Part shown: piece after piece, positions 29,759-51,353 of the stretch
Position numbering within the stretch: the first letter of the stretch is position 1
Layout of the letters: the number at the start of each line of letters is the position of its first letter
Assembly (NCBI RefSeq): GCF_007990755.1
Contig: NZ_BJXA01000052.1
Span: 1 to 64,000 of the forward strand
DNA length: 64,000 nucleotides
Reading direction: 5' to 3'
From: Nocardia ninae NBRC 108245
GTDB taxonomy: Bacteria; Actinomycetota; Actinomycetes; Mycobacteriales; Mycobacteriaceae
Position numbers and translations under genes: made by a program
Notes under the pieces: model-generated
The model's input: only the letters and a program-made list of their open reading frames with translations
What the model was told of the DNA's origin: nothing
Databases searched by the model: none

Positions 29759-29910
29759 GACTTTCTCCTTCGCCGAACCCGGCGCGAAGTCCGGGGTCGG
29801 TTGACGATCAACATGTCCAGCAGGGGGCACACGACCGCGAACCGGCATCTCGCGGTGAAGCAGGTCTCGACGCACCAATGGGTCGAGATGTAAACCGATG
29901 CAAGGCTATG

Positions 29911-30490: not shown

Positions 30491-31567
30491 CTACTTCAGG
30501 TACCAGGTGACCAGTCGTTCGACGAGTGCCAGATCACAGACCTCGTCGGGAACGTGCAGCACCGATTCCAGGTTGCGCCGGTCGAATTCGATGCGTTCCA
30601 GCAAGTACTTACCGGTGTATGCCATGCGGGTAGCTACCGCTCGGTCGAGCGCGGTGAGGTTGCGCTGCTCCCACTCCTGCGGCCGCACCGCATGCAGTGT
30701 CATGCCGAGTCCCGCGCCGACCAGGGTGACCGTCTCCGCGGCCGAGACACCGACCCGGTCGGTCAGGTTGACGATCTGCGGCAGGTTGTCGGCCTCAGCC
30801 AGGCCGAGCAGCCACTCCACGCAGGTATCGATGGGGACCAGGTTGAGGGTCGCACCGTCGGCGACTTGCACAGCCGCGTCGCCGCCCGGGAAGCGCCTGG
30901 CTACCCGCCGCATGTTCGACATGAAGTTGTAGATGCCGAAATCCGAGGTGGTGTGCGCGGTCTTGGCGGAGCCGACCACCTGCCCGAGCCGAAAGACGGC
31001 GCCCTCGACGCCGTGCTCCCGCATGAAATCCCGAAAGACCAGTTCCCCAGCGCATTTGGTGGCCTCGTACACCGTCCGGAACTGGGTGTCGCCGGTGATG
31101 GGCAGCCATGCCTCCTCGGTGGGCGTGTCCGATACGCCGCCGACGTAGGCGGTGCTGATCAGGAAGAAACGGGAGCCGGGGCGGCTGTACTCGGTGAACA
31201 GGCGCAGCGCCCGCTCCGTGCCCTTGGTGTTCACATCCTGGAGGAGCGCGGGCCGGTTCGGCGAAAGGTCAACGGCCGCAGCGAAATGCCAGAAGTCGCA
31301 GGGCTCGGAGAAGATCGTCGCGGCGACGAAATCGTCGATGCCCAGATTCTCCTGGGTCAACTCGCAGTCGAAGGTCTCCAGGTCGCTGACGTCGGGTGGG
31401 ATGTCCCCGTCGATGATGGACGCCGACTCGAGCGCCTCGAAGACGCGCGTCCGAGCCCCTCGGGCAAGGGCTTTCACCCGGACGCCGCGTTTGAGCAGTT
31501 CGCAGATCGTGTTGCTGGCCACGTACCCGTTCGCGCCGTCCACGACGGCCACTTTCGACGAAACCAT
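30491..31567 (-). CDS. Free-standing thioester reductase-like NAD(P)-dependent enzyme
   Basis: 358 residues from the ATG at 31567, which overlaps the condensation-gene stop (TGATG). Extended SDR of the NAD_binding_4 type: nucleotide motif DGANGYVASN, ELTQENLGIDD (the thioester-reductase LGL-like segment), HFAAAVDL, VNTKGTERAL, ISTAYVGG and catalytic YEATK. NRPS terminal reductases of this type release carrier-bound acyl chains as aldehydes or alcohols. Here it is separate, so it may act on the carrier protein at 43131. It could instead be a 3-beta-HSD-like dehydrogenase on a free substrate. Last gene of its operon. Confidence 0.68.
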   Translation of the reverse strand: MVSSKVAVVDGANGYVASNTICELLKRGVRVKALARGARTRVFEALESASIIDGDIPPDVSDLETFDCELTQENLGIDDFVAATIFSEPCDFWHFAAAVDLSPNRPALLQDVNTKGTERALRLFTEYSRPGSRFFLISTAYVGGVSDTPTEEAWLPITGDTQFRTVYEATKCAGELVFRDFMREHGVEGAVFRLGQVVGSAKTAHTTSDFGIYNFMSNMRRVARRFPGGDAAVQVADGATLNLVPIDTCVEWLLGLAEADNLPQIVNLTDRVGVSAAETVTLVGAGLGMTLHAVRPQEWEQRNLTALDRAVATRMAYTGKYLLERIEFDRRNLESVLHVPDEVCDLALVERLVTWYLK

Positions 31568-32952
31568 CAGACACTCCACAGGGTGCTGCGGAAGCGACGG
31601 TCGACGGTGCCGGCCAGTTGCCGCAGCGCGATATCGGGATGCCGCGCTGCCGCGAGACAGACCTCGGCGACGGTCGCGCACATGGCCGACGCGAATTCGT
31701 CGTCCCACAATCGCCGGGCCGCATTGAACGTCATGGCCAGTATCTCCTGTGTTCCCTTGATCGTGAGCAGGCCGTCGATCGGCAGCACGTTGCCCACCGA
31801 CGTCCGGTGCAGGGCGTAATCCGCTGCGGCACAGTCGGGTCCGAACAGTGCCGCACCCGCCGGAGCCTTCGGGACATTGAGCATCTGCACCGGGCACAGG
31901 CCACTGTTCGGGTCGATCAGTGAAACGGACAGGTCCGGACACTCCTCGAGGACCTCGATGAAGGGGTACCACTGAAACCGATAAGCCAGCAGGCAGTTCT
32001 GCTTGAACGACGTGACCAGTTCCGCGAAGGACAGCTCCGGTGACCACTGGAACTTGATCACGAAGGGATTGAAGAGCATGGCCACCGACTGATGGAACCG
32101 CGGATCCCGGCGCCCGTGGCTGAAGGTCGGCATGAGGTAGGCGTCGCTGCCACCGAGGTGCCCGAGCACGAAACCGTAAGCCGCGGCGATCACCATGAAC
32201 GGAGTCGCCCGCAGTTTGCCCGCCAAGCCGCGCACCGCAGCGGTTTCCGCGGGTGATAAGCCACGATCGCCCCGGCTGGTCAGTGCGCCCTCCCCCGCGT
32301 CCTTGCCGGCTATCTGCAGAACATCGAGGGAGCCGAGGTATTCCGGCCAGAAGTCGCGGGCTTGCGCCGCCTCCGGTGACTCCAGTGCGGCTAGCTCGTC
32401 CAGGACGATCTGCCCGTAGTCCACCTCTAGCGGCTCGGGCTCGGATGCCAGTCCGCCCGCCGCGCGGTAGTACTGTCCGACATCGCGTTTCAGCACCTCC
32501 AGCGACCATGCGTCGGCCGCGCTGTGATGCACCGTCACCTGGAGCAGCCGCCGCTGCGCCTGCTCGTCCTCCAGCAGCAGCACGCGGACCAACGGTGGCC
32601 TGGTGAGGTCGAAGGGTGCGTTGTTGTGCTCGACCAGCGCCTCTTCGATGCCCGGCTCGTACCGGTTCCCCAATGTCGCGGCCAGCACGGTGGTTTCGGC
32701 TTCGGTGCCGGAACCGATGACCTGCTCGGACATCCCGCGCCCGCGAACCACGGCAGTCCGCAACGCCGCATGCCGTTCGATGCTCCGGGCGACGGCGTCG
32801 AACAGTCGGCTGCGGTCGAGCGCCCCGTCGATCGTGAGCCGGAAGGAGATATTGAACGCTTCCGCCGCGCCGCCGGGCCGGATCGATTCCAGGAAGTCGA
32901 GCAGATGCTGCCCCGGCGTCAAGGGCAACCTGGTCTCGCCAGGCAGACTCAC
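31567..32952 (-). CDS. Stand-alone NRPS condensation-domain protein
   Basis: 461 residues. The N-terminal pattern LPLTPGQHLLDFLE and the active-site motif HHSAADAWS match condensation domains; the canonical HHxxxDG has Ala for Gly. ILYDPNSGLC-like LIDPNSGLCPVQML and the C-terminal block YALHRTSVGNVLPIDGLLTI complete the acceptor/donor fold, as in free-standing C domains. It should form an amide or ester between a carrier-bound acyl group and an amine or alcohol acceptor, perhaps the phosphonate. Overlaps both neighbours by 1-4 bases. Confidence 0.8.
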   Translation of the reverse strand: MSLPGETRLPLTPGQHLLDFLESIRPGGAAEAFNISFRLTIDGALDRSRLFDAVARSIERHAALRTAVVRGRGMSEQVIGSGTEAETTVLAATLGNRYEPGIEEALVEHNNAPFDLTRPPLVRVLLLEDEQAQRRLLQVTVHHSAADAWSLEVLKRDVGQYYRAAGGLASEPEPLEVDYGQIVLDELAALESPEAAQARDFWPEYLGSLDVLQIAGKDAGEGALTSRGDRGLSPAETAAVRGLAGKLRATPFMVIAAAYGFVLGHLGGSDAYLMPTFSHGRRDPRFHQSVAMLFNPFVIKFQWSPELSFAELVTSFKQNCLLAYRFQWYPFIEVLEECPDLSVSLIDPNSGLCPVQMLNVPKAPAGAALFGPDCAAADYALHRTSVGNVLPIDGLLTIKGTQEILAMTFNAARRLWDDEFASAMCATVAEVCLAAARHPDIALRQLAGTVDRRFRSTLWSV

Positions 32953-34154
32953 GTTCGCGAGCCTTCATGCAGGAAGCGATGTGCCGCAACCGCATACGTC
33001 AGCGCGTACCGTTTCAGGTCGTTAACCTCGACATACTCGTCGACCATGTGCGCGATCCATTTTCCACCGGGCCCGTACACCACGCTCGGGACATTTCCGT
33101 AGTGGGTCAGGATGGTGCCGTCGGTGGTCCCCGGTACCGCGCCGAGGACGGGGCGGACGCCGTTGACAACCTCGTGCGCGTCGACCAGCGCGGTGACAAG
33201 TGGTGTGTCCGAACCGGTTTCGACCCATGGTCGATCGTCGATCACGGTGACCGAGGATCCGATCCCGCGTTCGCGTGCCGCGGTGTCGACGCACTCGCCG
33301 ATCCGCTTCAGCAGCGTCTCGTGGTCCACCCCCGCGACGGTGCGCACATCCAGGAACAGCGAACTCGTGCCCGGGATCGTGTTCATCTGATCCGCGGTGC
33401 CTGCCTGGATCACCGTCGGGGTGATGGACGGCGACCCGAGCGAGGTCCGGCTGCCCACTTCCTCGATCAGCCGCTCTTCCAGCTCTTCCAGGCCCAGCAT
33501 CACCCTGGCCATCGCGGGTAACGTGTTGCGGCCCTGCCACGGCATCGCGCCGTGGCTCATCACGCCCGTGAAGTCCACCCGGAGCCGGATCGCGCCCTTC
33601 GACGTCGGGCACACCTCGTCGCCTTCGGGCTCACAGCAGATCACGCCGTCGACGTCCTGGACGAAGCCCTGGGCCACCGACGCCTTGGCCCCGGTCATCA
33701 TGCCCTCTTCGTCGGCCAGCAGCAGTAGCCGGACCCGGCCGGGGAACGGACCGGACAGCTGTAATGCCCGTGCCCCGTACAGCATTGCCGCGACACCCGA
33801 CTTCATGTCGGCGGAGCCACGTCCGTAGAGCTTCCCGTCACGGATCTCGCCGCCGAACGGATCGACGGTCCACTGGTCGGGATCGCCTTCGGTCACCACG
33901 TCCATATGACCTTCGAAGGCCAGTGTCGGACCAGGCCCGCCGCCGCCGGTCAACGTCACCACGATGTTGGGGCGGCCGCCTGCGTCGAAAAGCTCTACCG
34001 CCCAGTCCCATTCCCGGATCTTCGCGAGCAGGAACTCCGCTACCGCGCGCTCACCGCGGCCGACTTCTCCCAAAGCGTGCGTGCGCACGAGGTGCTGCGT
34101 GAACTCGATGAGTTCCGGCTCATTGATTCCGGCATCAAGCGAAGTGATGTCCAC
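32949..34154 (-). CDS. M20 family metallo-amidohydrolase (ArgE/DapE-like)
   Basis: 401 residues. Two-metal peptidase motifs: EGHMDVV (ligand His and Asp), GRGSADMKSG (bridging Asp), LLADEEG (catalytic Glu pair), CEPEGDE and a C-terminal HMVDEYV. Dimerisation-domain sequence lies in between (MSHGAMPWQGRNTL). The family hydrolyses N-acyl amino acids or small peptides. In this cluster it could remove an N-acyl protecting group or trim a peptide precursor. It overlaps the condensation gene by 4 bases, so involvement in the pathway is likely. Confidence 0.82.
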   Translation of the reverse strand: MDITSLDAGINEPELIEFTQHLVRTHALGEVGRGERAVAEFLLAKIREWDWAVELFDAGGRPNIVVTLTGGGGPGPTLAFEGHMDVVTEGDPDQWTVDPFGGEIRDGKLYGRGSADMKSGVAAMLYGARALQLSGPFPGRVRLLLLADEEGMMTGAKASVAQGFVQDVDGVICCEPEGDEVCPTSKGAIRLRVDFTGVMSHGAMPWQGRNTLPAMARVMLGLEELEERLIEEVGSRTSLGSPSITPTVIQAGTADQMNTIPGTSSLFLDVRTVAGVDHETLLKRIGECVDTAARERGIGSSVTVIDDRPWVETGSDTPLVTALVDAHEVVNGVRPVLGAVPGTTDGTILTHYGNVPSVVYGPGGKWIAHMVDEYVEVNDLKRYALTYAVAAHRFLHEGSRT

Positions 34155-34209
34155 GGGGACCCCCAGGCGTCAAGTCTGTTCATGCTACGACGAGGTCGGT
34201 GTCCCCGTG

Positions 34210-35034
34210 CTAGATCGCGTCGCTTCGCTGCGCCTTGATCCACGACATCGCCTGCTGCAGTCCGGCGACCTCGCCTTCCCGCAGCACGACGCTCGTTCCG
34301 AAGTTGCCGTCGTCATCGATGTGCCCGAGCGGCAACAACTGTCGCCGTATCTCGGCCGACTCCGCCGGGCCCGCGCCGCCGTCGTGCAGCCACTCGTCCA
34401 GTGGCCGGAAACTGGTGGTCCGGTGCCCCTCGACCACGTCCAGGGAGTTGTCCCGCAGCAGGTCCAGGAGCTGTTGCTCGGTCTGCGTCGTCGCGTGTCC
34501 CGGGTCGCGGACGCGCTGTATCTGCTCGAACTGTTCGTGGGCAGCGCCGGAGAGCCCGGTGACGTTGTCCGCGATGACGACATGACCGCCGGGTCGTACC
34601 ACCCGCGCCATTTCGGCGACGACGATCTCCGGGCGCCGCACGTGGTGCAGCGCCCGCGTGCACATGACGAGATCGAAAGTGCCGTCCGCGAACGGCAGTT
34701 CCTCGACCAGCGCGACCACCAGCTGCACCGAGTCCACCTCGCCGTTGGCGCGCGCCTGCGCCAGCATCTGCGCCGACGAGTCGACCCCGATGATCTTCGG
34801 GCGCACACCGACTTTCGCGGCCACCGCCGCGGCGGCCGCGGTGCCGGTGGCCACGTCGAGGGCGCGCTCGAACTCCAGCGGGCGGATCAGCTCGGCGAGC
34901 AGTTCGACGTCGAGACGGCGGGCCTGTCCGCCGGCATAGGACTCTGCAATTGTCGCGAACCGCAATTGGTTTCGGGAAACCTGCGCGCGGTAGCCGTCGG
35001 TCGTCTGTCGCACTTCGGCGCCGTCGATGTTCAT
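34210..35034 (-). CDS. SAM-dependent class I methyltransferase
   Basis: 274 residues from the ATG at 35034. Motif I is ALDVATGTAAAAAV, then GVDSSAQMLAQARA (motif II), LPFADGTFDLVMCTRALHHV (motif III/IV) and RVVRPGGHVVIADN. This is UbiE/Methyltransf_11-like. First gene of the leftward operon, divergent from the phosphonate core operon. In the cluster it could O- or N-methylate the product or phosphonate. A close substrate assignment is not possible. Confidence 0.8.
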   Translation of the reverse strand: MNIDGAEVRQTTDGYRAQVSRNQLRFATIAESYAGGQARRLDVELLAELIRPLEFERALDVATGTAAAAAVAAKVGVRPKIIGVDSSAQMLAQARANGEVDSVQLVVALVEELPFADGTFDLVMCTRALHHVRRPEIVVAEMARVVRPGGHVVIADNVTGLSGAAHEQFEQIQRVRDPGHATTQTEQQLLDLLRDNSLDVVEGHRTTSFRPLDEWLHDGGAGPAESAEIRRQLLPLGHIDDDGNFGTSVVLREGEVAGLQQAMSWIKAQRSDAI

Positions 35035-35059
35035 GCGACTCCCAGGGGACCGGCGGGGC

Positions 35060-35088
35060 GGCGAATGTGATATTCGCCGATATTCACC
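35060..35088. promoter_or_regulatory. Inverted and direct repeats in the divergent promoter of the phosphonate cluster
   Basis: GGCGAAT-GTGAT-ATTCGCC (35060-35078) is an inverted repeat; GATATTCGCC and GATATTCACC (35069-35088) form a tandem direct repeat. They lie in the 241-base gap between the leftward and rightward operons, close to the methyltransferase start. Similar GGCGAA/TTCGCC arms occur upstream of panC (49965-49991). Candidate operator; no regulator is encoded nearby. Confidence 0.35.
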
Positions 35089-35275
35089 GGGCCTACGGTA
35101 CCTTGTATTCACGCAAAAAACCCTGTCCGAGCACCGGGGGGACACCGAGGGGACAGCTTGTCCGTGGCGGGCACCCGCCGGTCCACGGGCGGTGTCCGAC
35201 GTGCTGCCGGCGTCCGTTCCGAGGTGCCCTGCGGTAGTTGCCGGCTCGTGTTCTTCCGATGGAGGCAGGTGGTTG

Positions 35276-36475
35276 ATGGATGCCGCCGATGTTCGAGACA
35301 GCACCTTGCTGCTGAACTCGCCTCGCACGATCGTCGGCATGCGCGCTGCCGAGGTCGCCACCGAAGTCGTTGCCGCTGCGGCAGGTACAGCGCGGGCCCC
35401 GCGAGTACTGGTGATAACCGGCGGCAGCTTCGCACGGCATAGCTGGTCCGAGCCACTGCTGGCAGCACTACGTTCGTTTCCGCTGCACGTCGTGACACAC
35501 TCGGGCCTGCCGACGCCCGAATCCGTCGCGCTGCTGGCTCGCGAGATGCGGGCCCATCGCGCCGACGTGGTGCTCGCGGTCGGCGGCGGCAGCGTCATGG
35601 ATGCGGGCAAAGCCGCTGCGGCGCTGTCGATCAGCGCCGATCCCACACCTGAGCTGGTGGTGCGCGCCTGCGCGGAAGAGGCAGGCGCCGAGGACGTTCC
35701 GCCGATCATCGCCCTGCCCACGACACCCGGAACAGGTGCCGAAGCCACACCGTTCGCCACGATCTGGCATCGGGACCAGGGCCGCAAGCTCTCCCTGCGC
35801 GGCGCTGCCCTCCGACCGGTGACGGCGATTCTCGACCCGGATCTGATCGCCGGGCTGCCCGAGTCATACTTCGTCAGTTGCCTGTTGGACACCCTCGCGC
35901 AGGGCTTGGAGGGCGCGTGGTCGATCCGCGCCGACGAGCAGTCCGAATGGCTCGGTGCCACCGCCTGGAACCTGTTGGCGGAGTTGCTGGACCGGCCACA
36001 CCACGGCCTGGGCTCGGCCGAACGACATGCGGCATTGCTCGCCGGTCACCTCGCCGGGCGGGCCATCGCCATCGCGGGAACCACTGTGTGCCACGCGATG
36101 TCGTACCCGCTGACGCTGCGCCACGGACTCGGCCACGGCCACGCGTGCGGACTCACGCTGGCATCGGTGCTGCGATACAACGCCCTCGTCGGCGACGACT
36201 GCACCGATCCGCGCGGCGCCCAGCGGGTGCGCGACGCCATCATCCGGGTGGTGCAGGCGGCGGGCGAAACCACCGTCGAGTCGTTGGCCGGGAAGATCGA
36301 GCAACTCGCGCGATCACCCGCACTGCCCGCGCCGCCGGACATCCGCCACGACGCACCTCGAATCGCCACCGAAGCACTCGCTTACGACCGCGCGGGCAAC
36401 AACCCGCGCCGCGTGGATGTGGCAGCCCTGACTCATCTGTTGGCCGGGACCGCGGAGAGAGACTATGCGCGTTGA
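35276..36475 (+). CDS. phpC: Iron-dependent alcohol dehydrogenase, phosphonoacetaldehyde reductase (PhpC-like)
   Basis: 399 residues from the ATG at 35276, with GGAGG upstream. Group III metal-dependent dehydrogenase: nucleotide motif VGGGSVMDAGKAAA, PTTPGTGAEAT, and metal ligands in DTLAQGLE, HLAGRAIA and HGLGHGHACG. In phosphinothricin and many other phosphonate clusters this family reduces phosphonoacetaldehyde to 2-hydroxyethylphosphonate. It sits first in the operon directly before hepD, with an 11-base overlap, which fits that step. The symbol is by analogy with the phosphinothricin cluster. Confidence 0.85.
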   Translation: MDAADVRDSTLLLNSPRTIVGMRAAEVATEVVAAAAGTARAPRVLVITGGSFARHSWSEPLLAALRSFPLHVVTHSGLPTPESVALLAREMRAHRADVVLAVGGGSVMDAGKAAAALSISADPTPELVVRACAEEAGAEDVPPIIALPTTPGTGAEATPFATIWHRDQGRKLSLRGAALRPVTAILDPDLIAGLPESYFVSCLLDTLAQGLEGAWSIRADEQSEWLGATAWNLLAELLDRPHHGLGSAERHAALLAGHLAGRAIAIAGTTVCHAMSYPLTLRHGLGHGHACGLTLASVLRYNALVGDDCTDPRGAQRVRDAIIRVVQAAGETTVESLAGKIEQLARSPALPAPPDIRHDAPRIATEALAYDRAGNNPRRVDVAALTHLLAGTAERDYAR

Positions 36476-37775
36476 CAATTACAAGGTCATGCACTGGCTG
36501 AACACCAGGAAGATGACGACCGGCCAGACCGCGGACGCCGTCGGCCTGGACCACGAACAGCTCGAGAAATTGATGTCGAGCGAGGAGTGGCCGGACGAGC
36601 TCGCCGCCGCGGTGGCCCGCGCGCTACAGATCACCCCGGAGCAGTTCGCCGCCAGCGGACGGTCCGGGCTGACCGTGCTGGTCCGCACCGCGCAGGACCT
36701 GCACGACACCCGGCGCCCCATCCAGCGCGACAGCATCCATTTCTACAACTACTACACAATGGCGGCGCCGCAGGGCGCGGTCGCGCCGGTCATTCTCGAC
36801 ATCCTGTGCCCCGCAGATCGTCTGCCCGCCTTGAACAATGGGCATCTGGAGCCGGCTATCACCATCAATCTCGGTCCCGGTGATATCCACGGGCGTTGGG
36901 GCGAGAAGCTCAGCGAGGCGACCTGGCAGGTGATCAGAGCCAATGCCGGAGCGGACAATTGGATCGTCGGCGACTCCTACGTCGAGCCGTCGTACTGCCC
37001 GCACACCTACTCACTGGCCGGGGCCGCCCCGGCCCGGATCGTGTCCTATACCGGTCAGTCTTCGCTCACCGGGTTGATCGAAGACGTCAACGATTGGTCG
37101 GACCCCGCCGCGCACGCGATGTTCGGCCGGCTCGAAGAAGGCCCGGCCCCGCAACAGGTCGCCACCCTGCTGCTGGATCGCCGCGGGCACACCCTCGAAT
37201 CGGCCGCAGCCCTGCTCGGCGCAGGCGAAGCGGATCTCGTCGCGGCGCTCGACGAGGGCGGTATCGAACTGCTGCGTGCACTGGGGACGACGCTCGGCTT
37301 CGATTACCGGCTACTGATCCGGCCCGCCACCAGGCACGACGCTGTGGGTAAAACCTTCAAGGACATCGAAGAATGTCGCAGGGAGACAAGGGCTTTCAAG
37401 GGCTATCAGGTCACCTCGACGGCCTCCGCCCCGCATCTGCCCGATCTCACCGGACTCTTCATGCTCGTGTCCGGGCACGGTGCCGACCTGCGCGAACCGG
37501 CCGAGTCCCATTATCTGGTGACCTCCGGCTCACCCACCCTGCACTGGACCAACGCCGACGGGCGCGAGGAACACGCGGAGCTGAGCGTCGATGCGTCGGC
37601 GTGGGTCGCGCCGTTCGTGACGCACCACTGGTCCGGCGACGGCGCGGTGCTCAAGCTCGGTTCCGGCCGACACCTCGGCTACCTCGATCTGTACGAACTG
37701 ACCAATACCTATGCCGCGGTGTCCACCTTGCGGCGTGGCCGCCGTGACAATCGCGGCTGGGGCTACGACTCTTGA
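36465..37775 (+). CDS. hepD: 2-hydroxyethylphosphonate dioxygenase (HepD)
   Basis: 436 residues, colinear with Streptomyces HepD. It cleaves the C-C bond of 2-hydroxyethylphosphonate with O2 to give hydroxymethylphosphonate and formate. The iron facial triad is visible as H127 (NNGHLEP), E174 and H180 (YVEPSYCPH), offset by two from H129/E176/H182 recalled for the Streptomyces enzyme. K16 and the phosphonate-binding region RRPIQRDSIHFYNYYT are also kept. Two repeats of an HTH-plus-cupin unit are seen (residues 1-200 and 215-430). Methylphosphonate synthase is the main alternative, but overall similarity favours HepD. Confidence 0.93.
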   Translation: MRVDNYKVMHWLNTRKMTTGQTADAVGLDHEQLEKLMSSEEWPDELAAAVARALQITPEQFAASGRSGLTVLVRTAQDLHDTRRPIQRDSIHFYNYYTMAAPQGAVAPVILDILCPADRLPALNNGHLEPAITINLGPGDIHGRWGEKLSEATWQVIRANAGADNWIVGDSYVEPSYCPHTYSLAGAAPARIVSYTGQSSLTGLIEDVNDWSDPAAHAMFGRLEEGPAPQQVATLLLDRRGHTLESAAALLGAGEADLVAALDEGGIELLRALGTTLGFDYRLLIRPATRHDAVGKTFKDIEECRRETRAFKGYQVTSTASAPHLPDLTGLFMLVSGHGADLREPAESHYLVTSGSPTLHWTNADGREEHAELSVDASAWVAPFVTHHWSGDGAVLKLGSGRHLGYLDLYELTNTYAAVSTLRRGRRDNRGWGYDS

Positions 37776-37793
37776 GCAGCACGGGAGAGAAGT

Positions 37794-38804: not shown

Positions 38805-38821
38805 TCCGAGAGGCAGTACCC

Positions 38822-42295: not shown

Positions 42296-42348
42296 CCCCC
42301 TCGCCACACACGGCGACAGTCTGTGATGAACAAGTTAGGACCGAACCG

Positions 42349-43149
42349 ATGACCGCGGAGCCCGAAGCCACTGTTCCTGTCGACTATCGATCGCTGTTTC
42401 GACTCGACGGGAAACGTGCCCTCGTCGTCGGCGCGGGTAGCGGTATCGGTCGCGAATCCGCGCTCGCTCTCGCGGCCCTCGGCGCGGAAGTGGTGTGTGC
42501 GGATCTCGATCTCGCGCGGGCACAGGAAACCGCGACGGCGGCCGGTCGTCCTGCCACCGCTGTGCAGTTGGATGCGCGGGATGCTGCTGCCGTCGAGGCG
42601 GCCGCCGGTGCGCTGGCCGAGCTGGACGTGTTCGTCTTCACCACGGGCCGGAATGTCCGTAAGCGCCTGTTCGACTATGCGACAGAGGAATTCGACGCCG
42701 TCTTGGACCTGAATCTACGTGCCGCCTTCCACATGATTCGGGCGTTCGGGAAGGGCATGGTCGCCCGAGGGGGTGGTTCGATCGTGGGCATGTCGTCGAT
42801 CAGGGCGCTCACCGTGGAACCGGGGCAGGCCGTTTACGCGGCGTCGAAGGCGGCGCTGGTGCAGCTGATCCGTGGGGCCGCTGCGGAATTCGGTCCGGCC
42901 GGGGTGCGGGTGAACGCGGTCGCGCCCGGGGTGGTGCGGACGCCGCTGACCGATCCGATCTTCGCGGTGCCGGAGTGGCAGCAGGCGTATGCGTCCAAGA
43001 GCGCGCTGGGCCGGTGGGCACAGCCGAGTGAAATCGCCGGAGCGGTGGCATTTTTGGCGTCCGACGCGGCCAGCTTCGTCACCGGCTCGATGCTATGTGT
43101 CGATGGCGGCTGGACCGCCGTAGACGGTCGCTACGAGCCGCCGCGTTGA
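42349..43149 (+). CDS. Classical short-chain dehydrogenase/reductase
   Basis: 266 residues. Rossmann motif GAGSGIGRES, ADLDLA acidic residue suggesting NAD preference, catalytic serine in IVGMSSIRAL, and YAASK. Ends in LCVDGGWTAVDG, typical of the family. Last gene of the core operon, 53 bases after the ALDH. It might interconvert an alcohol/ketone or alcohol/aldehyde of a phosphonate or of the conjugated acyl unit. Its 3' end overlaps the 3' end of the convergent carrier-protein gene by 19 bases. Confidence 0.85.
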   Translation: MTAEPEATVPVDYRSLFRLDGKRALVVGAGSGIGRESALALAALGAEVVCADLDLARAQETATAAGRPATAVQLDARDAAAVEAAAGALAELDVFVFTTGRNVRKRLFDYATEEFDAVLDLNLRAAFHMIRAFGKGMVARGGGSIVGMSSIRALTVEPGQAVYAASKAALVQLIRGAAAEFGPAGVRVNAVAPGVVRTPLTDPIFAVPEWQQAYASKSALGRWAQPSEIAGAVAFLASDAASFVTGSMLCVDGGWTAVDGRYEPPR

Positions 43150-43358
43150 GTCAGCACGAGCGCGTCCTTGACGAAGGTGCCCATGTCGGGCGCCTCGAAC
43201 AGGAGGTTCATCGGGACGGTGACGCCGAATTCGGCACGGAGCGCGGACATCAGCTCGCCGGCCAGGAGTGAGTCGCCGCCCAGTTCGTAGAAGTTCGCGG
43301 AGGGCTCGGTGTAGCCGCTGCCGCACACCCGGCCGACGACGGACCATATCCGTTCCAC
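43131..43358 (-). CDS. Discrete peptidyl/acyl carrier protein
   Basis: 75 residues from the GTG at 43358. Short helical protein with the phosphopantetheine site in FYELGGDSLLAGEL (LGGDSL, serine modified), as in NRPS carrier proteins. The stop of the ligase gene is one base upstream, so the ligase probably loads this carrier. The free condensation domain and thioester reductase encoded at 30491-32952 are its likely partners. Confidence 0.88.
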   Translation of the reverse strand: MERIWSVVGRVCGSGYTEPSANFYELGGDSLLAGELMSALRAEFGVTVPMNLLFEAPDMGTFVKDALVLTQRGGS

Positions 43359-43359
43359 G

Positions 43360-44787
43360 TCAGTCCTTTCGCCGCAGCTTGCCCGATGCTGTCCTGCGCA
43401 CATCGTCCACGATCTCGATCGCTCGCGGTGTCTGGGCTCTGGTCAGTTCATCGCGGCAGTTGCGCAACAGCTCGGCCGAGATCTGCGCTGGGTCGCCGCC
43501 GTGCAGGCTGACCTCGGCATGGACCACCTCGCCGAGATCCGGATCGGGCATCGCGCGGACGCGAACGTCGCGTACCTTGTCGTGGCGTTCCAGGACCCAT
43601 TCGATGTCGCGGGGGAAGACCTTTATGCCGCCCACGTTGATGGCGTCGTCCTTGCGGCCCACCAGTGTCACGTAGCCTTCGTCGTCCATCCACGCCAGAT
43701 CGCCGACGCTGAAATGTCCATCTACCTCAGACAATTTCGGGCCGCTGCCGAGGTATCGGGGTTGCCCGGCGTTCTCATCGGTCATGAACAGCTCGCCGGT
43801 GGTTCCGGCAGGGACTTCCCGGTGGAACTCGTCCAAGATCCGGACAGAGCAATGCAACGGACGCCCGACGGATCCGGGATGTTCGAGCCACTCGTCGCCG
43901 CGGATGCTGAGGACGCCGATCCGTTCGACGCTGCCGTATTCCTCGTACACCTTGGTCGGGTCGATCAGCTCGAGCCAGCGGCGTTTCACCGTGTCCGGGC
44001 ACCTCGCCGCGGTGTGCACGACCAGGCGCAGCGAGGAGAACCAGTGACTGTCCATGCCGCTCGCTCGGCTGAGCGTGGCCATTTGCGCGGGCACGGTCCT
44101 CAAGACCTCCACCTCTTCGGATTCGAGCAGCTCCAGGAACAGCTTCGGGGAGGCATTACCCGGGATGATGATGCGGTGCCCCAGCGCGAGTCCGTGGTAC
44201 AGGGCGCCGAAACCCGCGTGGTAGAGCGGCAGTCCGACGAGCTGGGTTTGGCCGTATGCCATGCCCCGCTCGCGTTCTTTGCTACTGAGCGGGCCTTTTT
44301 CGTCGTACGCCCACGGGCGGTTTCTGATGACGAGCTTCGGGTCACCGGTTGTTCCGCCGGAGAGCGATATCGATCTCGGCAGGCCGTCTGCCAGTTCCGA
44401 GATTCCTTCTGCCCGTGGGTGATAAGATACCAAGCCGCTGCCTTCGACTACCCACCCTCGTGGATATCGGTCGACGATGTTCGACTTCATGGTGTCCGAC
44501 CATCGGTGGTCCACCGGGAGCACGGCGGCGCCGACTTCCCACAGCGCCAGCGTTGCTATGACGTGACCGATCCCGGTCGGCAGTGCGACCGCGGCGACGT
44601 CGGCCGCGCGTAAACCGTTCTGGCTGAACTCCTCTGCTCGCTCGTGTGTTTTCGACACGAGCGCACTCCAGGTGATCTCCTCGCTGGCGCTGAAGCCGCG
44701 AACCTTGACGGCGCAGTCGTGCGGCCGCTCCGCCGCTGTTTTCGCGATGAGCTCGCAGATCGATATCTTGCCTGTCATGGATGCCAC
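43360..44787 (-). CDS. AMP-dependent acyl ligase (fatty-acyl-CoA/AMP ligase-like)
   Basis: 475 residues; GTG at 44787 or ATG at 44778. ANL-superfamily motifs: P-loop SLSGGTTGDPKLV, YEEYGSVER, GDLAWMDDEGY, GRKDDAINVGGIKV and the C-terminal catalytic lysine in TASGKLRRKD. LVGLPLYHAGFGALYHG lacks the Asp that anchors amino acids in NRPS A domains, so a carboxylic acid substrate without an alpha-amine is more likely. It probably adenylates this acid and loads the adjacent carrier protein. Adjacent to the aminotransferase, with zero gap. Confidence 0.82.
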   Translation of the reverse strand: MASMTGKISICELIAKTAAERPHDCAVKVRGFSASEEITWSALVSKTHERAEEFSQNGLRAADVAAVALPTGIGHVIATLALWEVGAAVLPVDHRWSDTMKSNIVDRYPRGWVVEGSGLVSYHPRAEGISELADGLPRSISLSGGTTGDPKLVIRNRPWAYDEKGPLSSKERERGMAYGQTQLVGLPLYHAGFGALYHGLALGHRIIIPGNASPKLFLELLESEEVEVLRTVPAQMATLSRASGMDSHWFSSLRLVVHTAARCPDTVKRRWLELIDPTKVYEEYGSVERIGVLSIRGDEWLEHPGSVGRPLHCSVRILDEFHREVPAGTTGELFMTDENAGQPRYLGSGPKLSEVDGHFSVGDLAWMDDEGYVTLVGRKDDAINVGGIKVFPRDIEWVLERHDKVRDVRVRAMPDPDLGEVVHAEVSLHGGDPAQISAELLRNCRDELTRAQTPRAIEIVDDVRRTASGKLRRKD

Positions 44788-46116
44788 TTATCCGTTGCTG
44801 ACGACGTATTCATCGGCGATGCACAAGGTTTCGTCCAACAGCGCCATTCCTTCTCGGATCTCCGCTTCCTCGATGATCAGCGGCGGGCACACCAGGATGA
44901 TGTTCCAGTGGGTGAGCAAATACAAGCCCTTGCGGAAGGCCGCGGCGGTCAGCCTCGTCATCGGCTCGGCGGCAGCGGCATCCGGGTTGAACGGGACGAG
45001 CGGTTGTTTGCTCGCACGGTCGGTGACCAGTTCGATTCCCCAGAAGCAGCCGCTGCCGCGAATGTCCCCGATCGAAGGGTGCCGTTCGGCCAAGGCGCGC
45101 AGCTCTTTCTCGATGAGCGGGCCGAGCCGCTCCGCGCGTTCGACGAGCCGCTCCTTCTGGTAGACGCCCAGCACGGCGACGGCGGCCGCGCAGCCGACGG
45201 GATGGGCGCTGTGGGTCAACCCATACGGAAACACCGAGTCCTGCAACCAGCTCGACAGCCGGTCGCTCACGGCGGCGGCCGCCAGCGGTACGTAACCGGC
45301 GGTCAAACCCTTTGCGCAGGTGATGATGTCGGGCACGACGCCCCACCGGTCGCAGGCGAACCAGCTTCCGGTGCGGCCGAAGCCGGTCATCACCTCATCG
45401 AAGATCAGCAGGATCCCGTGCTCGGTGCACACGTCGCGGATCGCTTGCAGATAACCGTCGGGCGGGACGATCACGCCGTTGATCCCGGTGACCGGCTCGA
45501 GGATCACCGCTGCCACGTTCTCGGCCCCTTCGTACTGGAGCAGTTCCCTGAGGTGCGGTGCGCCCGAGCACACCGGGCAGGGCGTGGGATGGCCTGCGGG
45601 ACAACGATAGGTGTACGGGTCGAGCATGCGGACGACGCCGGGCATGCCGGGCTCCCCCACCCAACGGCGCGGCTCACCGGTCAGCGTGAGGGCGCCCGCC
45701 GTGCTGCCGTGGTACGAGCGGTAACGGGCGATGACCTTGCTCCGGCCGGTGTACGCGCGCGCCAGCCGGATCGCGGCCTCGTTCACCTCGGTTCCGCTGC
45801 ACGCGAAGAAGAACGAGTTGAGGTCACCCGGCGTGACCTCGGCGAGGCGGTCGGCCAGCTCGCCGACGATCTCGACATCCCACGGGCGGCCGAGCGTGGC
45901 CATGGTGGCCACCTGTTTCTGGACCGCCTCCTGGACCTCCGTGCGGCTGTGCCCCAAATTCGCGTTGACGAGCTGGGAGCCGAAGTCGAGGTAGGACCGT
46001 CCGGCGGCGTCGAAGAACCGGCACCCGTCGCCGCCGACGATCCGCGGCGGCGGGTCCCCGCCCTGCCTCGACCACGACTGGATGACCCGGCCTTTTGCTG
46101 TCGCGGAATCTCCCAT
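44788..46116 (-). CDS. Class III PLP-dependent aminotransferase with a Cys-rich insertion
   Basis: 442 residues from the ATG at 46116. Fold type I, class III: ACSGTEVNEAAIRLARAYTG, RYRSYHGSTAGAL, FDEVMTGFGRTG and the PLP lysine in ITCAKGLTAGYVPL. It resembles taurine- or omega-amino acid-pyruvate aminotransferases. An insertion around residues 175-190 carries CPAGHPTPCPVC, suggesting a metal site or structural loop. Likely role: making an amine from an aldehyde or ketone, perhaps the reductase product, to be acylated. Confidence 0.86.
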   Translation of the reverse strand: MGDSATAKGRVIQSWSRQGGDPPPRIVGGDGCRFFDAAGRSYLDFGSQLVNANLGHSRTEVQEAVQKQVATMATLGRPWDVEIVGELADRLAEVTPGDLNSFFFACSGTEVNEAAIRLARAYTGRSKVIARYRSYHGSTAGALTLTGEPRRWVGEPGMPGVVRMLDPYTYRCPAGHPTPCPVCSGAPHLRELLQYEGAENVAAVILEPVTGINGVIVPPDGYLQAIRDVCTEHGILLIFDEVMTGFGRTGSWFACDRWGVVPDIITCAKGLTAGYVPLAAAAVSDRLSSWLQDSVFPYGLTHSAHPVGCAAAVAVLGVYQKERLVERAERLGPLIEKELRALAERHPSIGDIRGSGCFWGIELVTDRASKQPLVPFNPDAAAAEPMTRLTAAAFRKGLYLLTHWNIILVCPPLIIEEAEIREGMALLDETLCIADEYVVSNG

Positions 46117-46162
46117 TGTGTTGCACACCTTTCGATTACGGCACTGCGGCGGTTTCCCGCTG

Positions 46163-46915
46163 TCAGCGAATAGCGACGCGACGCTGGCTGCCCGGATCGA
46201 ACGCGAAGGTCGCGATGATCGATAGGACGCAGGCCCAGCCGGCGAGCACGAGCAGGTTGGGGCCGATGCTCACCAATCCCCCGCGTTGCGCGAGCACCTG
46301 CTGCATGCCGTCCACCGCCCAGTACTGCGGGGTCAGCGGGGCGAGTGGGCGGTCCCAGGCGGGCATCAGCCGGACCGGCACGACAGCGCCGCCCACCGCG
46401 CCCATGCCGAGAACGACGAGCTGGCAAAGGTTTTGCATGGCGGACACGTTCCGGGTGAGCGAGATCAGTACCAGACCGAGGGCGATGGCGGCCCAGGCGA
46501 TGGTCAGGATGAGGACGGCCAGGGCGAGTAGTGAGCCGTTGATCGTCGCGCCGAAAAGCCACCAGCCGGTGAGGATCAACAGCGCCATCTGCGCCGAGGA
46601 GAGCACGAAATACGGGATGGCGAGTTGGATCGCCATCGTTGCCCTGGACAGGCCGCTGGCCTTGACCAGACTCCAAGCACCGGATGCGTGTTCGCGGTAG
46701 TGGGACGTGCCCATGAACATCATCACGTAGAAGCCGAACATCACCGTGAAGCCGGGGACGGTCTGGTTGGCCCCGGTGCCGCCGATGATGCCGGAGAAGG
46801 CATCGCTGAGCAGGGCCTGCATCAACAGTGGTGCGGCGAAGAGGAAGACGAACAGGGTGGGGTCCTGGCGCCAAGTAGCCAGTTCTTTACGGACGAAGGC
46901 CCAGGTGATCGTCAT
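46163..46915 (-). CDS. ABC-2 type transporter permease
   Basis: 250 residues with six hydrophobic segments. N-terminus MTITWAFVRKELATWRQDPT is the usual amphipathic start of ABC-2 permeases such as those exporting antibiotics. It overlaps the ATPase gene by 4 bases, and together they form an exporter. In this cluster it most likely exports the product and contributes to self-protection. Confidence 0.88.
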   Translation of the reverse strand: MTITWAFVRKELATWRQDPTLFVFLFAAPLLMQALLSDAFSGIIGGTGANQTVPGFTVMFGFYVMMFMGTSHYREHASGAWSLVKASGLSRATMAIQLAIPYFVLSSAQMALLILTGWWLFGATINGSLLALAVLILTIAWAAIALGLVLISLTRNVSAMQNLCQLVVLGMGAVGGAVVPVRLMPAWDRPLAPLTPQYWAVDGMQQVLAQRGGLVSIGPNLLVLAGWACVLSIIATFAFDPGSQRRVAIR

Positions 46916-47862
46916 CGCGCCGCCGTTCTCGGCCGCTGCTCGATGATCTGCAAGAAGGCGTTCTCCAGCGAAACAGGCACCGAGCGAACATCTTTGACGG
47001 GCAGATTGCTCTCGTCGAGCACTCGGACGAGGGTCGGCAGGATCTCCGGTTGTTGCGCCGCCACCCGGATTCGCCTGCCGTGCACCGTTATCGCGGTGTC
47101 GGGTAGCACGTCGTGCAACAGGGTCGTCACGGCCGCCGCCTGCTCGCTGATGATCTCGCAGTACGGGCTGGCGTATTCCGCCACAAAGCTTTTCACGTCG
47201 GTCGTGACGATGAGTGTGCCCTCATCGAGCACACCGATTCGGTCGCAGAGGATTTCGGCTTCCTCCAGGTGGTGGGTGGTGTAGAGGATCGTCGAGCCTT
47301 CGCCACGCAGTTCTCTGAGGACGTTGTGAATGGCTTGGCGGGAGTCGATGTCGACGCCGGTGCTCGGTTCGTCCAGGACCATCAGCGGGGGCGAATGCAC
47401 GATGCCCATGCCGATCGACAGCCGGCGGCGCTCGCCACCCGAGAGTTGCGCACCGCCCCGGTCCGCTATCCGGCTGAGGCCGAGCCGCTCCATCACCTCG
47501 GCGGCCCTGCGGTGCGCGGTGGGGCGGGGCATGCCGCGGACGATCGCGGCGAAACGCAGGTTCTGCCATACCGTCATCGCCAGATACACCGTGTTGTCTT
47601 GGGGGACATAGCCGATGCGTCTGCGTAGGCGGCGGCCGTGCCTGCGCACGTCGGTGCCGAATACCTCTACTCGTCCGGCGGTCGGTTTGACGAGGCCGCA
47701 GGTGATGTCGAGCGCGGTGGACTTTCCGGCGCCGTTGCGGCCCAACAGTCCGAAGATTTCGCCGCGGCCGACGGACAGGCTTACTCCGTCCAGGGCGACG
47801 ACCGAGCCGTAAGTCTTGCGCAGGTCGTCTACCAGGACAACCGGCTCGTCGGCTACGTCCAT
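46912..47862 (-). CDS. ABC transporter ATP-binding protein (DrrA-like)
   Basis: 316 residues from the ATG at 47862. Walker A GRNGAGKS, Q-loop GYVPQDN, signature LSGGERRRLS, Walker B LMVLDEPSTGVD and switch His in TTHHLEEAE. The C-terminal extension of about 90 residues is typical of antibiotic-export ATPases. It pairs with the permease at 46163. Its start overlaps the beta-lactamase-fold gene by 10 bases. Confidence 0.92.
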   Translation of the reverse strand: MDVADEPVVLVDDLRKTYGSVVALDGVSLSVGRGEIFGLLGRNGAGKSTALDITCGLVKPTAGRVEVFGTDVRRHGRRLRRRIGYVPQDNTVYLAMTVWQNLRFAAIVRGMPRPTAHRRAAEVMERLGLSRIADRGGAQLSGGERRRLSIGMGIVHSPPLMVLDEPSTGVDIDSRQAIHNVLRELRGEGSTILYTTHHLEEAEILCDRIGVLDEGTLIVTTDVKSFVAEYASPYCEIISEQAAAVTTLLHDVLPDTAITVHGRRIRVAAQQPEILPTLVRVLDESNLPVKDVRSVPVSLENAFLQIIEQRPRTAAR

Positions 47863-48998
47863 GGTGCGGCCTGGTGGCTCGCCACGATCGAGCGGACCTG
47901 ATCCCGGTAGTAGACCGCTCGTCCGTAGCAATGGGTCATCAGGACCGCCCCTACGCCGGAGGCAATGTTGAGGACGAACGAGCTAGCGGCACGGCCCAGC
48001 CATCCCACGGTGTTCGCCTGCGGCGCTGTCCAATTCGGATCACTGCTCGGCACATGGAGGCCGTAGGAGAAGCCGTAGCCCTTGCCCGGGATGTAGTCGG
48101 GGCCGCTACCTGCCAGCTGTCCGATCTGATCGATGAAAAGTTCCCCGGTGAGGGGACCCAGAGCAGGGATGAACAGTCGACCGTCGCGGTCGGGGGCGAT
48201 CGCGCACAGCAGCTTTGTGAAGTCGACGGCAGTGGAATAGGCGCCCGAACCGGCCGATAGCCACGCAGGTCTTTCTCGGTGTGTCACAAGGCCTTCGGGG
48301 GTCGAGGGTATTCCTGCGAATGGTTGGGCGGCGCGGTGCAGATCCGTCGGCCGGACATGAAAGCCGGTGTCGCGCAACCCGAGCGGGCGACAGACTCGGT
48401 GCTCGACGATCTCATCGAGCGGACGGTTGTCCACCAGTTCGAGAATGCGCCCGAGGACATCCATGGCAACGCCGTATTCCCACCTGGCCCCGGGATCGGC
48501 GGAAAGGGGCAGCGTCGCTATTTTCCGGACCACCTGGTCGAGGGTCGGTGTCTCGGTCCGGTGTTCGTACTTCTGCAACTGAGCTTGCTCGTAGTAGGGC
48601 ATGACGTTCGCTGAGGTGTGCCGACCGCCGCCGATGCCCGCGGTCTGCCGCATCAGGTCAGCGAGTATCAGCGGCCGCCGCGGCGGTCGCAGGGTGCCGG
48701 CTTCCTCGACCCGGATATCGGTGAAGCAGGGCAGCCACTCGGCGACCGGGTCCGTCAGCCGCAGGCGGTCTTCGGCCACCATCGTCAACGTCGCCAGCGC
48801 GGTCAGCACCTTCGTCATGGAGTAGATCCGGAAGATGGCGTCCTCGCGCATCGGTAGCCCGCTGTTCGGGTCGAGGTCTCCGACGGCCCGCAGGTCCACC
48901 AGCGACCCGCGGTCGGTCACCGCGACCACCGCGCCCGGTAGTCGGTGCGCAGCCACCTCGGCCGATACGGCGTCCAGCAGCTCCGTCATCATGTCCAT
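47853..48998 (-). CDS. Beta-lactamase-fold serine hydrolase or acyltransferase (class C/LovD-like)
   Basis: 381 residues from the ATG at 48998 (GGAGGG upstream); a TTG at 49058 overlapping panC is possible. The active-site serine is in FRIYSMTKVLTAL (SxxK). The second motif is WEYGVAMDVLG (Tyr with Val for Asn), and the third is NTVGWLGRAASS in the KTG position. This pattern is that of esterases/transesterases (LovD, EstB) rather than true beta-lactamases. No signal peptide. In the cluster it could transfer an acyl group, cyclise or cleave an amide, or detoxify the product. Confidence 0.78.
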   Translation of the reverse strand: MDMMTELLDAVSAEVAAHRLPGAVVAVTDRGSLVDLRAVGDLDPNSGLPMREDAIFRIYSMTKVLTALATLTMVAEDRLRLTDPVAEWLPCFTDIRVEEAGTLRPPRRPLILADLMRQTAGIGGGRHTSANVMPYYEQAQLQKYEHRTETPTLDQVVRKIATLPLSADPGARWEYGVAMDVLGRILELVDNRPLDEIVEHRVCRPLGLRDTGFHVRPTDLHRAAQPFAGIPSTPEGLVTHRERPAWLSAGSGAYSTAVDFTKLLCAIAPDRDGRLFIPALGPLTGELFIDQIGQLAGSGPDYIPGKGYGFSYGLHVPSSDPNWTAPQANTVGWLGRAASSFVLNIASGVGAVLMTHCYGRAVYYRDQVRSIVASHQAAPWT

Positions 48999-49054
48999 TC
49001 GTCGCCCTCCGCGCCCCATGTGCATCCGTACTTCAGCGCCGAGTACGCCGTCGG

Positions 49055-49897
49055 TCAAATCTCCGTGTTGTCGATCAGGCGGGTACTTCCGAGCCAGACG
49101 GCCGCGACTAGGCGGTTGCTTTTGGTGACGCCACGGACCGGGTCCAGGGTCTCCCCATCGACCAGCTCCAAGTATTCGACGCGGTCCATGCCCGCCTCGA
49201 TCAGTGCCCGCCGACCCTCGCCGAGCATCTCGGCGACCGAGCCCGGTTCCGCCCGCAACTTCTCGGTGAGCTCCGTCAAGATCCGGAACAGCGAGGCGGC
49301 CGTGCGCCGTTCGGCGGTACTGAGGTAAGCGTTCCTGGACGACAGGGCCAGCCCGTCCGGCTCTCGCACCGTGGGTACCGACCGCACCTCGATCGGCAAC
49401 CCCAGATCGCGAATAACCGCACGCATCACCACCAGCTGCTGAAAGTCCTTCTCCCCCAGGTACACCGCCGTCGGCGCGAGCAGAAGCAGGATCTTCGACA
49501 TCTCGGTGGTAACGCCGGCGAAGTGAGTCGGCCTACCAACCCCACACAACAGGGACGACAAGCGGGGCACCGCGACCGTCAGCCCAAAACCCGGCGGGAA
49601 CAACTCATCCGCCGCCGGCAGCCACGCAATATCCGCCTCCGCCTTCTCGCAGAGCGCCAGATCCCGGTCCTCATCCCGCGGATACGAATCGAAATCCTCA
49701 TCCGGCCCGAACTGCAACGGATTGACAAACACCGAAGCCACCACCACGCCATCACGCGCCCTGGCCGCCCGAACGAGCGCAAGATGCCCGTCATGCAGCG
49801 CCCCCATGGTGGGCACGTACCCGATGCTCTCCCCCCGACCACGGGGCTCCGCCAAGGCCTGCCGCACTTCCGCGACACTCCGAACAACGATCATCAC
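49055..49897 (-). CDS. panC: Pantoate-beta-alanine ligase homologue (PanC), cluster-associated
   Basis: 280 residues; GTG at 49897 (GAGGG 6 bases upstream) or ATG at 49894. Nucleotidyltransferase-fold ligase with YVPTMGALHDGHLALV (HIGH-like), VNPLQFGPDEDFDSYPR, GEKDFQQL (KMSKS-equivalent region with SSRNAYLS). It joins pantoate and beta-alanine through an acyl adenylate. All pantoate-site motifs I can recall look intact. Its place as first gene of the cluster's leftward operon suggests either a dedicated amide ligase for a pathway acid, or extra pantothenate supply. The housekeeping copy is expected elsewhere, near the folate genes. Confidence 0.85.
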   Translation of the reverse strand: MMIVVRSVAEVRQALAEPRGRGESIGYVPTMGALHDGHLALVRAARARDGVVVASVFVNPLQFGPDEDFDSYPRDEDRDLALCEKAEADIAWLPAADELFPPGFGLTVAVPRLSSLLCGVGRPTHFAGVTTEMSKILLLLAPTAVYLGEKDFQQLVVMRAVIRDLGLPIEVRSVPTVREPDGLALSSRNAYLSTAERRTAASLFRILTELTEKLRAEPGSVAEMLGEGRRALIEAGMDRVEYLELVDGETLDPVRGVTKSNRLVAAVWLGSTRLIDNTEI

Positions 49898-50988: not shown

Positions 50989-51315
50989 TATCGAGTTCTC
51001 CCTTGCTCCGTCGACATCGACCGAGCAGGCCGATGGGTCATCCGACGGCCAACTTGCCGTGATCAGCAGCGGGCGTCGATACGTCTTCGTTGCCGGACAC
51101 GGTCTGGATGGGACGGCTGTGTCAGCGCTTCGGCAGTTTGGGGATGCCTAGGTGGCGGCCAAAGATGGCACCCGATCAGCTACTGGCTGGGTTTGGTGGT
51201 ACGGCCGCAGACACCCGCGCACTCGAGCGGTAGGTGTCGTGCGGCGAACGTTCTTTTCGCGCCGTGGATACAGTTTTGGACACAGTCCGGGCTGCAGGCA
51301 TGCGAAACGAAAGAT

Positions 51316-51343: not shown

Positions 51344-51353
51344 TTCTTGTATG

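Follow-up and report, generated by a model that had tools for sequence, protein, structure and literature searches.

Positions 30491–49897 of a 64,000-nucleotide stretch from Nocardia ninae NBRC 108245 (the start of contig NZ_BJXA01000052.1; this whole stretch is referred to as the window) carry 18 genes, which form three compact operons (Table 1). The genome is that of a Nocardia and has a size of 9.7 Mb. A minus-strand operon (methyltransferase-M20-C-TR) diverges from a plus-strand operon (Fe-ADH-HepD-PhpE-PepM-Ppd-ALDH-SDR), and a second minus-strand operon (PanC-beta-lactamase-fold-ABC-ABC2-aminotransferase-acyl ligase-carrier) completes the region. Genes within operons are spaced by −79 to +55 bp and the divergent pair is 241 bp apart, distances which depend on partly inferred gene starts. 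Gene identification drew on reading frames, on coding bias, and on domain searches (Pfam, and NCBIfam with its own cut-offs). An earlier reading of the same DNA (hereafter the original prediction) had proposed a phosphonate gene cluster, and nearly all genes which it named were found where it had placed them. Its list overlooked the aldehyde dehydrogenase (ALDH), the short-chain dehydrogenase/reductase (SDR), and the methyltransferase. The region is one dedicated phosphonate biosynthetic cluster.

Table 1. Genes of the phosphonate cluster and of the adjoining integrative element, in window coordinates.
Feature	Position	Strand	Basis or remark
TR: extended SDR (NAD_binding_4)	30491..31564	-	Pfam NAD_binding_4 73.7 bits
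C: stand-alone condensation domain	31567..32952	-	Pfam PF00668 137.3 bits
M20 amidohydrolase, ArgE/DapE-type deacylase	32949..34154	-	TIGR01910 242.1, above cut-off 217.6
S-adenosylmethionine (SAM) methyltransferase	34210..35034	-	Pfam Methyltransf_11 84.9 bits; 40% homolog in L029
Iron-dependent alcohol dehydrogenase (Fe-ADH), PhpC-like	35276..36475 (start inferred)	+	Pfam Fe-ADH 111.4 bits
HepD, hydroxyethylphosphonate dioxygenase	36465..37775	+	57% identity to PhpD 3g7d, full length
PhpE-like 2-hydroxyacid dehydrogenase	37794..38804	+	2-Hacid_dh_C 157.5 bits
PepM, phosphoenolpyruvate mutase	38822..39745	+	Pfam PEP_mutase 198.8 bits; EDKVFPKMNS
Ppd, phosphonopyruvate decarboxylase	39730..40914	+	TIGR03297 393.9, above cut-off 312.5
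Aldehyde dehydrogenase (ALDH), PhpJ-like	40880..42295	+	Aldedh 473.1 bits
SDR oxidoreductase	42349..43149	+	adh_short_C2 201.7 bits; 52% homolog in L029
Discrete carrier protein with GGDSLLA	43131..43403	-	PP-binding 47.2 bits
Acyl-adenylating ligase (A)	43360..44787	-	AMP-binding 120.2 bits
Class III aminotransferase	44788..46128	-	Aminotran_3 297.3 bits
ABC-2 exporter membrane subunit	46163..46915	-	ABC2_membrane 75.4 bits
ABC exporter ATPase, DrrA-like	46912..47931 (first start maybe too far upstream)	-	ABC_tran 115.5 bits
Beta-lactamase-fold serine hydrolase, esterase-like	47853..49058	-	PF00144 163.1 bits
PanC paralog, probably with changed acyl pocket (E76, E132)	49055..49897	-	TIGR00018 274.3, cut-off 212.75
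Integrase	51463-52584		integrative element
Helix-turn-helix (HTH) protein	52584-53237		integrative element
RepSA	52817-54691		integrative element
FtsK-like	56003-57454		integrative element

The hallmark of PepM is the motif EDKx(5)NS, and PepM was confirmed by Pfam at the position where the original prediction had recognized it. With this motif and with Ppd as driving second step, the region has the characteristics of a PepM-dependent cluster. The predicted hydroxymethylphosphonate route is likewise supported: HepD is far closer to PhpD (E-value 2.2e-156) than to methylphosphonate synthase MPnS (6b9s, 3.6e-06), and it retains H127, E174, and H180, which we take to be the 2-His-1-Glu iron ligands. 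The best NCBIfam match of the Fe-ADH is of the PsrA type and scores below the cut-off of that model. Sequence identities to the cluster of S. viridochromogenes (L022) are 69% for PhpE, 64% for ALDH, 59% for PepM, 58% for Ppd, 55% for HepD, and 47% for Fe-ADH. Judging by this strong homology, the early steps (PepM, Ppd, Fe-ADH, HepD, PhpE, ALDH) would correspond to phpC-D-E-J of phosphinothricin biosynthesis. The PhpJ step to phosphonoformate is likely because the ALDH is present in the block.

The three genes which follow Ppd in L022, presumably phpF, phpG, and phpH, occur in all seven phosphinothricin-type loci (L017–L019, L021–L023, L025). The search which was positive on these seven loci gave no match to phpF/G/H in the window or in 26 other HepD loci. 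For phpF, there was also no match in the whole source genome, an empty result which alone shows little and for which the seven loci are the positive control. The candidate of a phosphinothricin-type cluster was thus rejected. To judge from homology, the block is a phosphinothricin front end joined to a different back end.

HepD was searched in named genomes with a scan that detects only genes with one of two short peptide patterns, so that its counts are lower bounds. At least 33 loci were found, 23 of them actinobacterial and 10 from Pelagibacteraceae, and, judged by HepD, no named relative is closer than N. suismassiliense (97%). The block is present in the same gene order at eight named Nocardia loci (L010–L016, L039), a recurrence far beyond chance, and all 18 genes are kept across them, save Ppd in N. 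tenerifensis (L012). In L016, the block is split at a contig end and its remainder, from PepM to PanC, is found on another contig of the same genome (L088). The Nocardia loci as fetched ended before or inside the beta-lactamase-fold gene; this gene and PanC were confirmed by further searches (the beta-lactamase-fold protein is matched in the L015 genome over 235 of its 401 residues by the best single hit). The conserved block ends with TR on one side and PanC on the other. Genes beyond the block are not conserved: a sulfate permease is found on the left at three of the eight loci (2.8–4.2 kb available) and a thioredoxin-like gene on the right at one (within 1.5 kb).

A scan of 150 Nocardia genomes (threshold E 1e-60; at most 11 first-look candidates scored per genome) detected HepD in 12 and C in 11, every one of these with HepD. 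The acyl ligase was found in the same 11 genomes, in addition to one weak match (35%, G533) in a genome without HepD. The twelfth HepD genome has another architecture, and the position of its match fits N. jiangxiensis (L024). The original prediction had itself pointed out that flanking operons conserved apart from pepM would speak against a single cluster. This was tested and not borne out: C and HepD co-occur in 11 of 11 cases, and no independent conservation of the flanking operons was seen in these 150 genomes. A phylum sample of 396 genomes contained HepD once, in the source genome itself. HepD searches of viral contigs and of plasmids yielded nothing useful, and a DNA-level search of plasmids gave short gene-level matches only.

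The original prediction had attributed dissociated thioester-template enzymes to the flanks. Discrete A, carrier, and C proteins are indeed present, with all three domains passing Pfam. Condensation domains carry the motif HHxxxDG, which reads HHSxADA in the eight aligned C proteins, with the G replaced by A. GGDSLLA, including the modifiable serine, is kept in 8/8 aligned carrier proteins. The assignment of TR as a thioester reductase is not supported (TIGR01746 56.6 compared to a cut-off of 213.35). The protein is an extended SDR, passing Pfam NAD_binding_4, in which Y166xxxK170 is invariant among 8/8 orthologs and whose role is uncertain. Domain searches also confirmed the class III aminotransferase, the M20 hydrolase, the beta-lactamase-fold enzyme, PanC, and the ABC exporter. 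The closest solved structures are bile-acid CoA ligase BaiB (4lgc) for the acyl ligase, carboxylesterase 4ivi and esterase 7pp3 for the beta-lactamase-fold enzyme, and taurine:2-oxoglutarate aminotransferase (6jix) for the aminotransferase. As taurine is a sulfonate amine, the latter suggests that an amine beside an anionic group is involved.

PanC had been correctly listed in the original prediction, which did not draw out its significance. Three PanC genes are encoded in the genome, the cluster copy being an extra paralog. Among the 23 genomes with actinobacterial HepD loci, 12 carry a PanC in the cluster and one or two further copies elsewhere; the other 11 have a single PanC. The genomes with two or three copies are the eight with the Nocardia block and those of N. 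jiangxiensis (L024), two Frankia (L026, L027), and a metagenome-assembled genome (MAG) of the Solirubrobacteraceae (L029). In each of the latter four, PanC, a beta-lactamase-fold enzyme, ALDH, a methyltransferase, and a class III aminotransferase accompany HepD and PhpE. Because PanC and its associated genes recur with HepD/PhpE in four other clusters, we consider PanC the best clue to the product.

The C, A, carrier, and TR proteins of the window have no match in the fetched 19.6–21.3 kb of these four loci, so that the thioester set of Nocardia appears to have been added to a core shared by these clusters. PanC could be thought to raise the pantothenate supply for coenzyme A or for the phosphopantetheine arm on the carrier, a protein which is present in the Nocardia version. 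Such precursor supply is very improbable given that PanC occurs in the four clusters without a carrier or condensation protein of the window type in the fetched DNA, that two further PanC genes exist in the genome, and that the pocket residues are changed (see below). Beside one Frankia cluster, an AMP-binding domain is fused to a 2-hydroxyacid dehydrogenase (L026:14032-16581); activation of a second acid may thus also take place in some PanC-type clusters outside the Nocardia block. At the corresponding place, the second Frankia (L027) has a 2-hydroxyacid dehydrogenase of 347 aa.

In a PanC tree, the 13 cluster copies lie on one side of a branch and 21 housekeeping copies apart from them (support 100/99). 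Duplicates L051–L053 were dropped, the housekeeping set consists of the 21 copies fetched as loci, and a long-branch warning applies to this tree. A housekeeping panC at the cluster edge was rejected, since two other PanC genes exist in the genome and the cluster copy belongs to the separate clade. A backbone tree was computed from four concatenated proteins (HepD, PhpE, PepM, ALDH; 23 rows). Neither the L016 locus, with its cut contig, nor any of the 10 Pelagibacteraceae loci entered this tree; L020 is without two of the four proteins, and a stop sign in the ALDH of L028 and L042 was read as X. PanC-type clusters appear in three separate places of this tree, and well-supported branches force at least two label changes, with four rows of neither type uncounted. 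As a single PanC clade is combined with scattered backbones, PanC and HepD/PhpE have been brought or kept together repeatedly. The module was either gained repeatedly or lost repeatedly; both histories point to a functional tie of PanC to this phosphonate chemistry.

An essential enzyme that is present as an extra copy in PanC-type clusters could also confer self-resistance, being an insensitive version of the product's target with no part in synthesis, and an altered acyl pocket could exclude an anionic inhibitor. However, the cluster PanCs form one divergent clade and are not copies of each host's own gene. Moreover, the panC and aldh reading frames of L024 overlap by 4 bp (with starts taken as the first possible), which places panC inside a biosynthetic operon. 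We consider self-resistance quite unlikely.

H35, H38, N59, Q62, K150, and Q154 are kept in 13/13 cluster and 21/21 housekeeping PanCs. By shared motifs, they equal His44, His47, Asn69, Gln72, Lys160, and Gln164 of M. tuberculosis PanC, which are named as conserved active-site residues in part of a study on that enzyme (PMC5772511). E76 and E132 are found in all 13 cluster PanCs and in none of the 21 housekeeping copies, which have L, F, or M at position 76 and V, without exception, at position 132. T130 is present in 12/13 cluster PanCs compared to L in 21/21 housekeeping copies, and position 133 differs, too. According to the same motif-based count, E76 and E132 fall on M. tuberculosis positions 86 and 142. 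Val142 is listed in the active-site pocket in a section of PMC11317409; in docking described there, two of three named plant compounds, but not a nucleotide analogue, contact Val142 and Gln72. Residues 75–88 are discussed, in a portion of PMC7770189, as a possible gate which becomes ordered when pantoyl adenylate forms. The cluster copy thus resembles a pantothenate synthetase in passing TIGR00018 and in keeping the active-site residues, but carries E at the Val142 position in 13/13 cases. We read E76/E132 as a probable change of acyl substrate.

With catalytic and pantoate-binding residues retained, PanC might instead couple pantoate to an aminophosphonate rather than to beta-alanine, resulting in a pantothenate mimic which poisons coenzyme A synthesis. 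The similarity of the aminotransferase to taurine aminotransferase fits this scenario, and pantoyltaurine is a known pantothenate antimetabolite (mentioned in the same portion of PMC7770189). We nevertheless regard the mimic as unlikely, because a phosphonate amine is expected to alter the amine side and not the acyl pocket, where the Val142 position is V in 21/21 housekeeping and E in 13/13 cluster copies.

The pathway may be envisaged as follows. PepM would convert phosphoenolpyruvate to phosphonopyruvate, Ppd would produce phosphonoacetaldehyde, and the Fe-ADH hydroxyethylphosphonate. HepD would then yield hydroxymethylphosphonate, the PhpE-like enzyme phosphonoformaldehyde, and the PhpJ-like ALDH phosphonoformate. 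Here the pathway departs from that of phosphinothricin, given that phpF/G/H are missing from the window. An amine would be supplied by the class III aminotransferase, the likeliest such amine being aminomethylphosphonate formed from phosphonoformaldehyde. PanC would adenylate a small acid, either in place of pantoate or in addition to it, and link this acid to the amine; the two new glutamates suggest an acid with a cationic (for instance amino) group. A second acid might, in the Nocardia version, be loaded on the carrier by the acyl ligase, with the condensation protein forming another amide. The methyltransferase would cap the molecule, the M20 and beta-lactamase-fold hydrolases would trim or deprotect it, and the ABC pump would export an acylated or peptidyl C1 phosphonate. 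Support is good for the early steps and for the departure from phosphinothricin; the sequence of the late reactions and their substrates are proposed, as is the amide or peptide nature of the product.

Several points weigh against reading the cluster as dedicated to an amide-linked C1 phosphonate and PanC as an amide ligase with switched substrate. PepM scores slightly below the cut-off of NCBIfam TIGR02320 (305.4 vs. 319.55). E76/E132 are interpreted by way of residue numbers transferred from M. tuberculosis PanC, and pantoate may still be the acid, since the six residues of the pantoate enzyme are unchanged in 13/13 cluster PanCs. The window aminotransferase is just 34% (L029) and 24–27% (L024, L026, L027) identical to those of the other PanC-type clusters, so that the aminotransferases may not be orthologs. 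Finally, ALDH and aminotransferase may compete for phosphonoformaldehyde, and the scheme leaves unexplained why both are kept in PanC-type clusters. The presence of the PhpJ-like ALDH in PanC-type loci (11 named loci and the genome of L016) would fit a scheme in which phosphonoformate itself or its thioester is the key unit. The ligase would then load phosphonoformate on the carrier and the condensation protein would make a phosphonoformamide, while the aminotransferase makes an unrelated amine, for example beta-alanine. The acyl ligase is indeed of the acyl-CoA ligase rather than the amino-acid kind, and Frankia L026 likewise has an AMP-binding domain beside its cluster. However, the ALDH also occurs in the four other PanC-type clusters, in whose fetched DNA nothing matched the ligase, carrier, or condensation protein of the window, and this alternative is improbable in our estimate.

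Our confidence in the amide-linked C1 phosphonate with PanC as substrate-switched amide ligase is thus evenly balanced. More tentatively, and with doubts prevailing, a portable PanC and beta-lactamase-fold module might have joined hydroxymethylphosphonate pathways in several actinobacterial lineages, with PanC coupling a small, probably amino-bearing acid to aminomethylphosphonate and resulting in an undescribed class of phosphonate amide antibiotics.

In N. tenerifensis (L012), Ppd is absent between PepM and ALDH of the block. Another contig of this species (L087) carries Ppd, PepM, and ALDH together, which are 43–46% identical to those of the window and represent a second phosphonate cluster. 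This second cluster might supply the missing Ppd step. Two pepM clusters were counted in N. tenerifensis DSM 44704 in a survey from 2025 (PMC12723261); in the sections of that survey considered here, they are counted and not described. One of the two may be the block reported here, which in this species has therefore probably been seen already as a phosphonate cluster.

HepD clusters of still other kinds occur in Dactylosporangium, Goodfellowiella, and two Streptomyces (L020, L028, L030, L042); these are without a cluster PanC and without phpF/G/H. The Solirubrobacteraceae MAG locus additionally codes for a pyridoxal phosphate (PLP) decarboxylase, a TauD-type dioxygenase, and possibly a third protein of 401 aa that has no Pfam match (L029:8-1330, 16642-17430, and 17711-18916).

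Just left of the cluster, a sulfate permease fused to carbonic anhydrase is encoded (window 27506–29878). On the right, a pSAM2-like integrative element adjoins (window 51353–57454; Table 1). A 47-bp stretch (51353–51399) matches part of a tRNA-Val(CAC) of N. suismassiliense (L086) without mismatch, and no second copy of it was found in window positions 51300–64000. The genes of the element were not found at L086. That the cluster is carried by this element is not supported, as both the block and the thioredoxin-like gene are present in N. suismassiliense while the element genes are absent from the 15 kb examined.

Antibiotics and herbicides come from phosphonate clusters. Because the first steps of phosphinothricin biosynthesis are shared and the ending is different, another compound should result. 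If PanC is a ligase as proposed, an enzyme of primary metabolism has been re-aimed, and two diagnostic residues could flag such clusters. The carriers of the block include species with strains under public collection numbers. In the open-licence literature, we found neither a description of this gene set nor one of a phosphonate cluster containing a PanC-type ligase.

As anticipated in the original prediction, the gene set matches none of those among the clusters compared. The clusters for phosphinothricin tripeptide and phosalacine (S. viridochromogenes L022, K. phosalacinea L025) share PepM, Ppd, and the PhpC-, HepD-, PhpE-, and PhpJ-type genes. In the backbone tree, the window enzymes nest within the phosphinothricin/phosalacine clade, sister to phosphinothricin-type clusters from Nonomuraea (100/100). 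Compared to phosphinothricin, the window is devoid of phpF/G/H and adds PanC, the beta-lactamase-fold enzyme, the class III aminotransferase, the methyltransferase, and discrete A, carrier, and C proteins.

The argolaphos cluster (alp, S. monomycini) likewise has, according to the parts of PMC8976061 considered, a hydroxyethylphosphonate dioxygenase (HEPD) route to phosphonoformaldehyde, an aminotransferase, and the beta-lactamase-family protein AlpP. AlpK and AlpL are described there to convert hydroxymethylphosphonate to aminomethylphosphonate in vitro, a precedent for the amine-forming step proposed above. AlpL is annotated as PRK05764, and among the remaining alp genes are those for an ATP-grasp ligase, for GNAT proteins, and for a nucleotidyltransferase, while the gene table of that article lists no PanC, ALDH, C, or carrier protein. 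The block does not belong to the argolaphos family, since neither ATP-grasp nor GNAT domains were found by Pfam in its 18 proteins and since its aminotransferase is of class III and not of the AlpL type.

Housekeeping PanCs are about 41–53% identical to the cluster PanC and have the same six catalytic and substrate-binding residues; the cluster PanCs differ by forming a separate clade, by E76 and E132, and by their location in phosphonate clusters. Closest in content are the PanC-type clusters L024, L026, L027, and L029, for which we found no published description. They differ from the window in gene order and, for L024, L026, and L027, by a protein of the major facilitator superfamily (MFS). 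They share with it HepD, PhpE, ALDH, PepM, Ppd, Fe-ADH, and PanC with E76/E132, and each has a beta-lactamase-fold enzyme, a class III aminotransferase, and a methyltransferase, as does the window.

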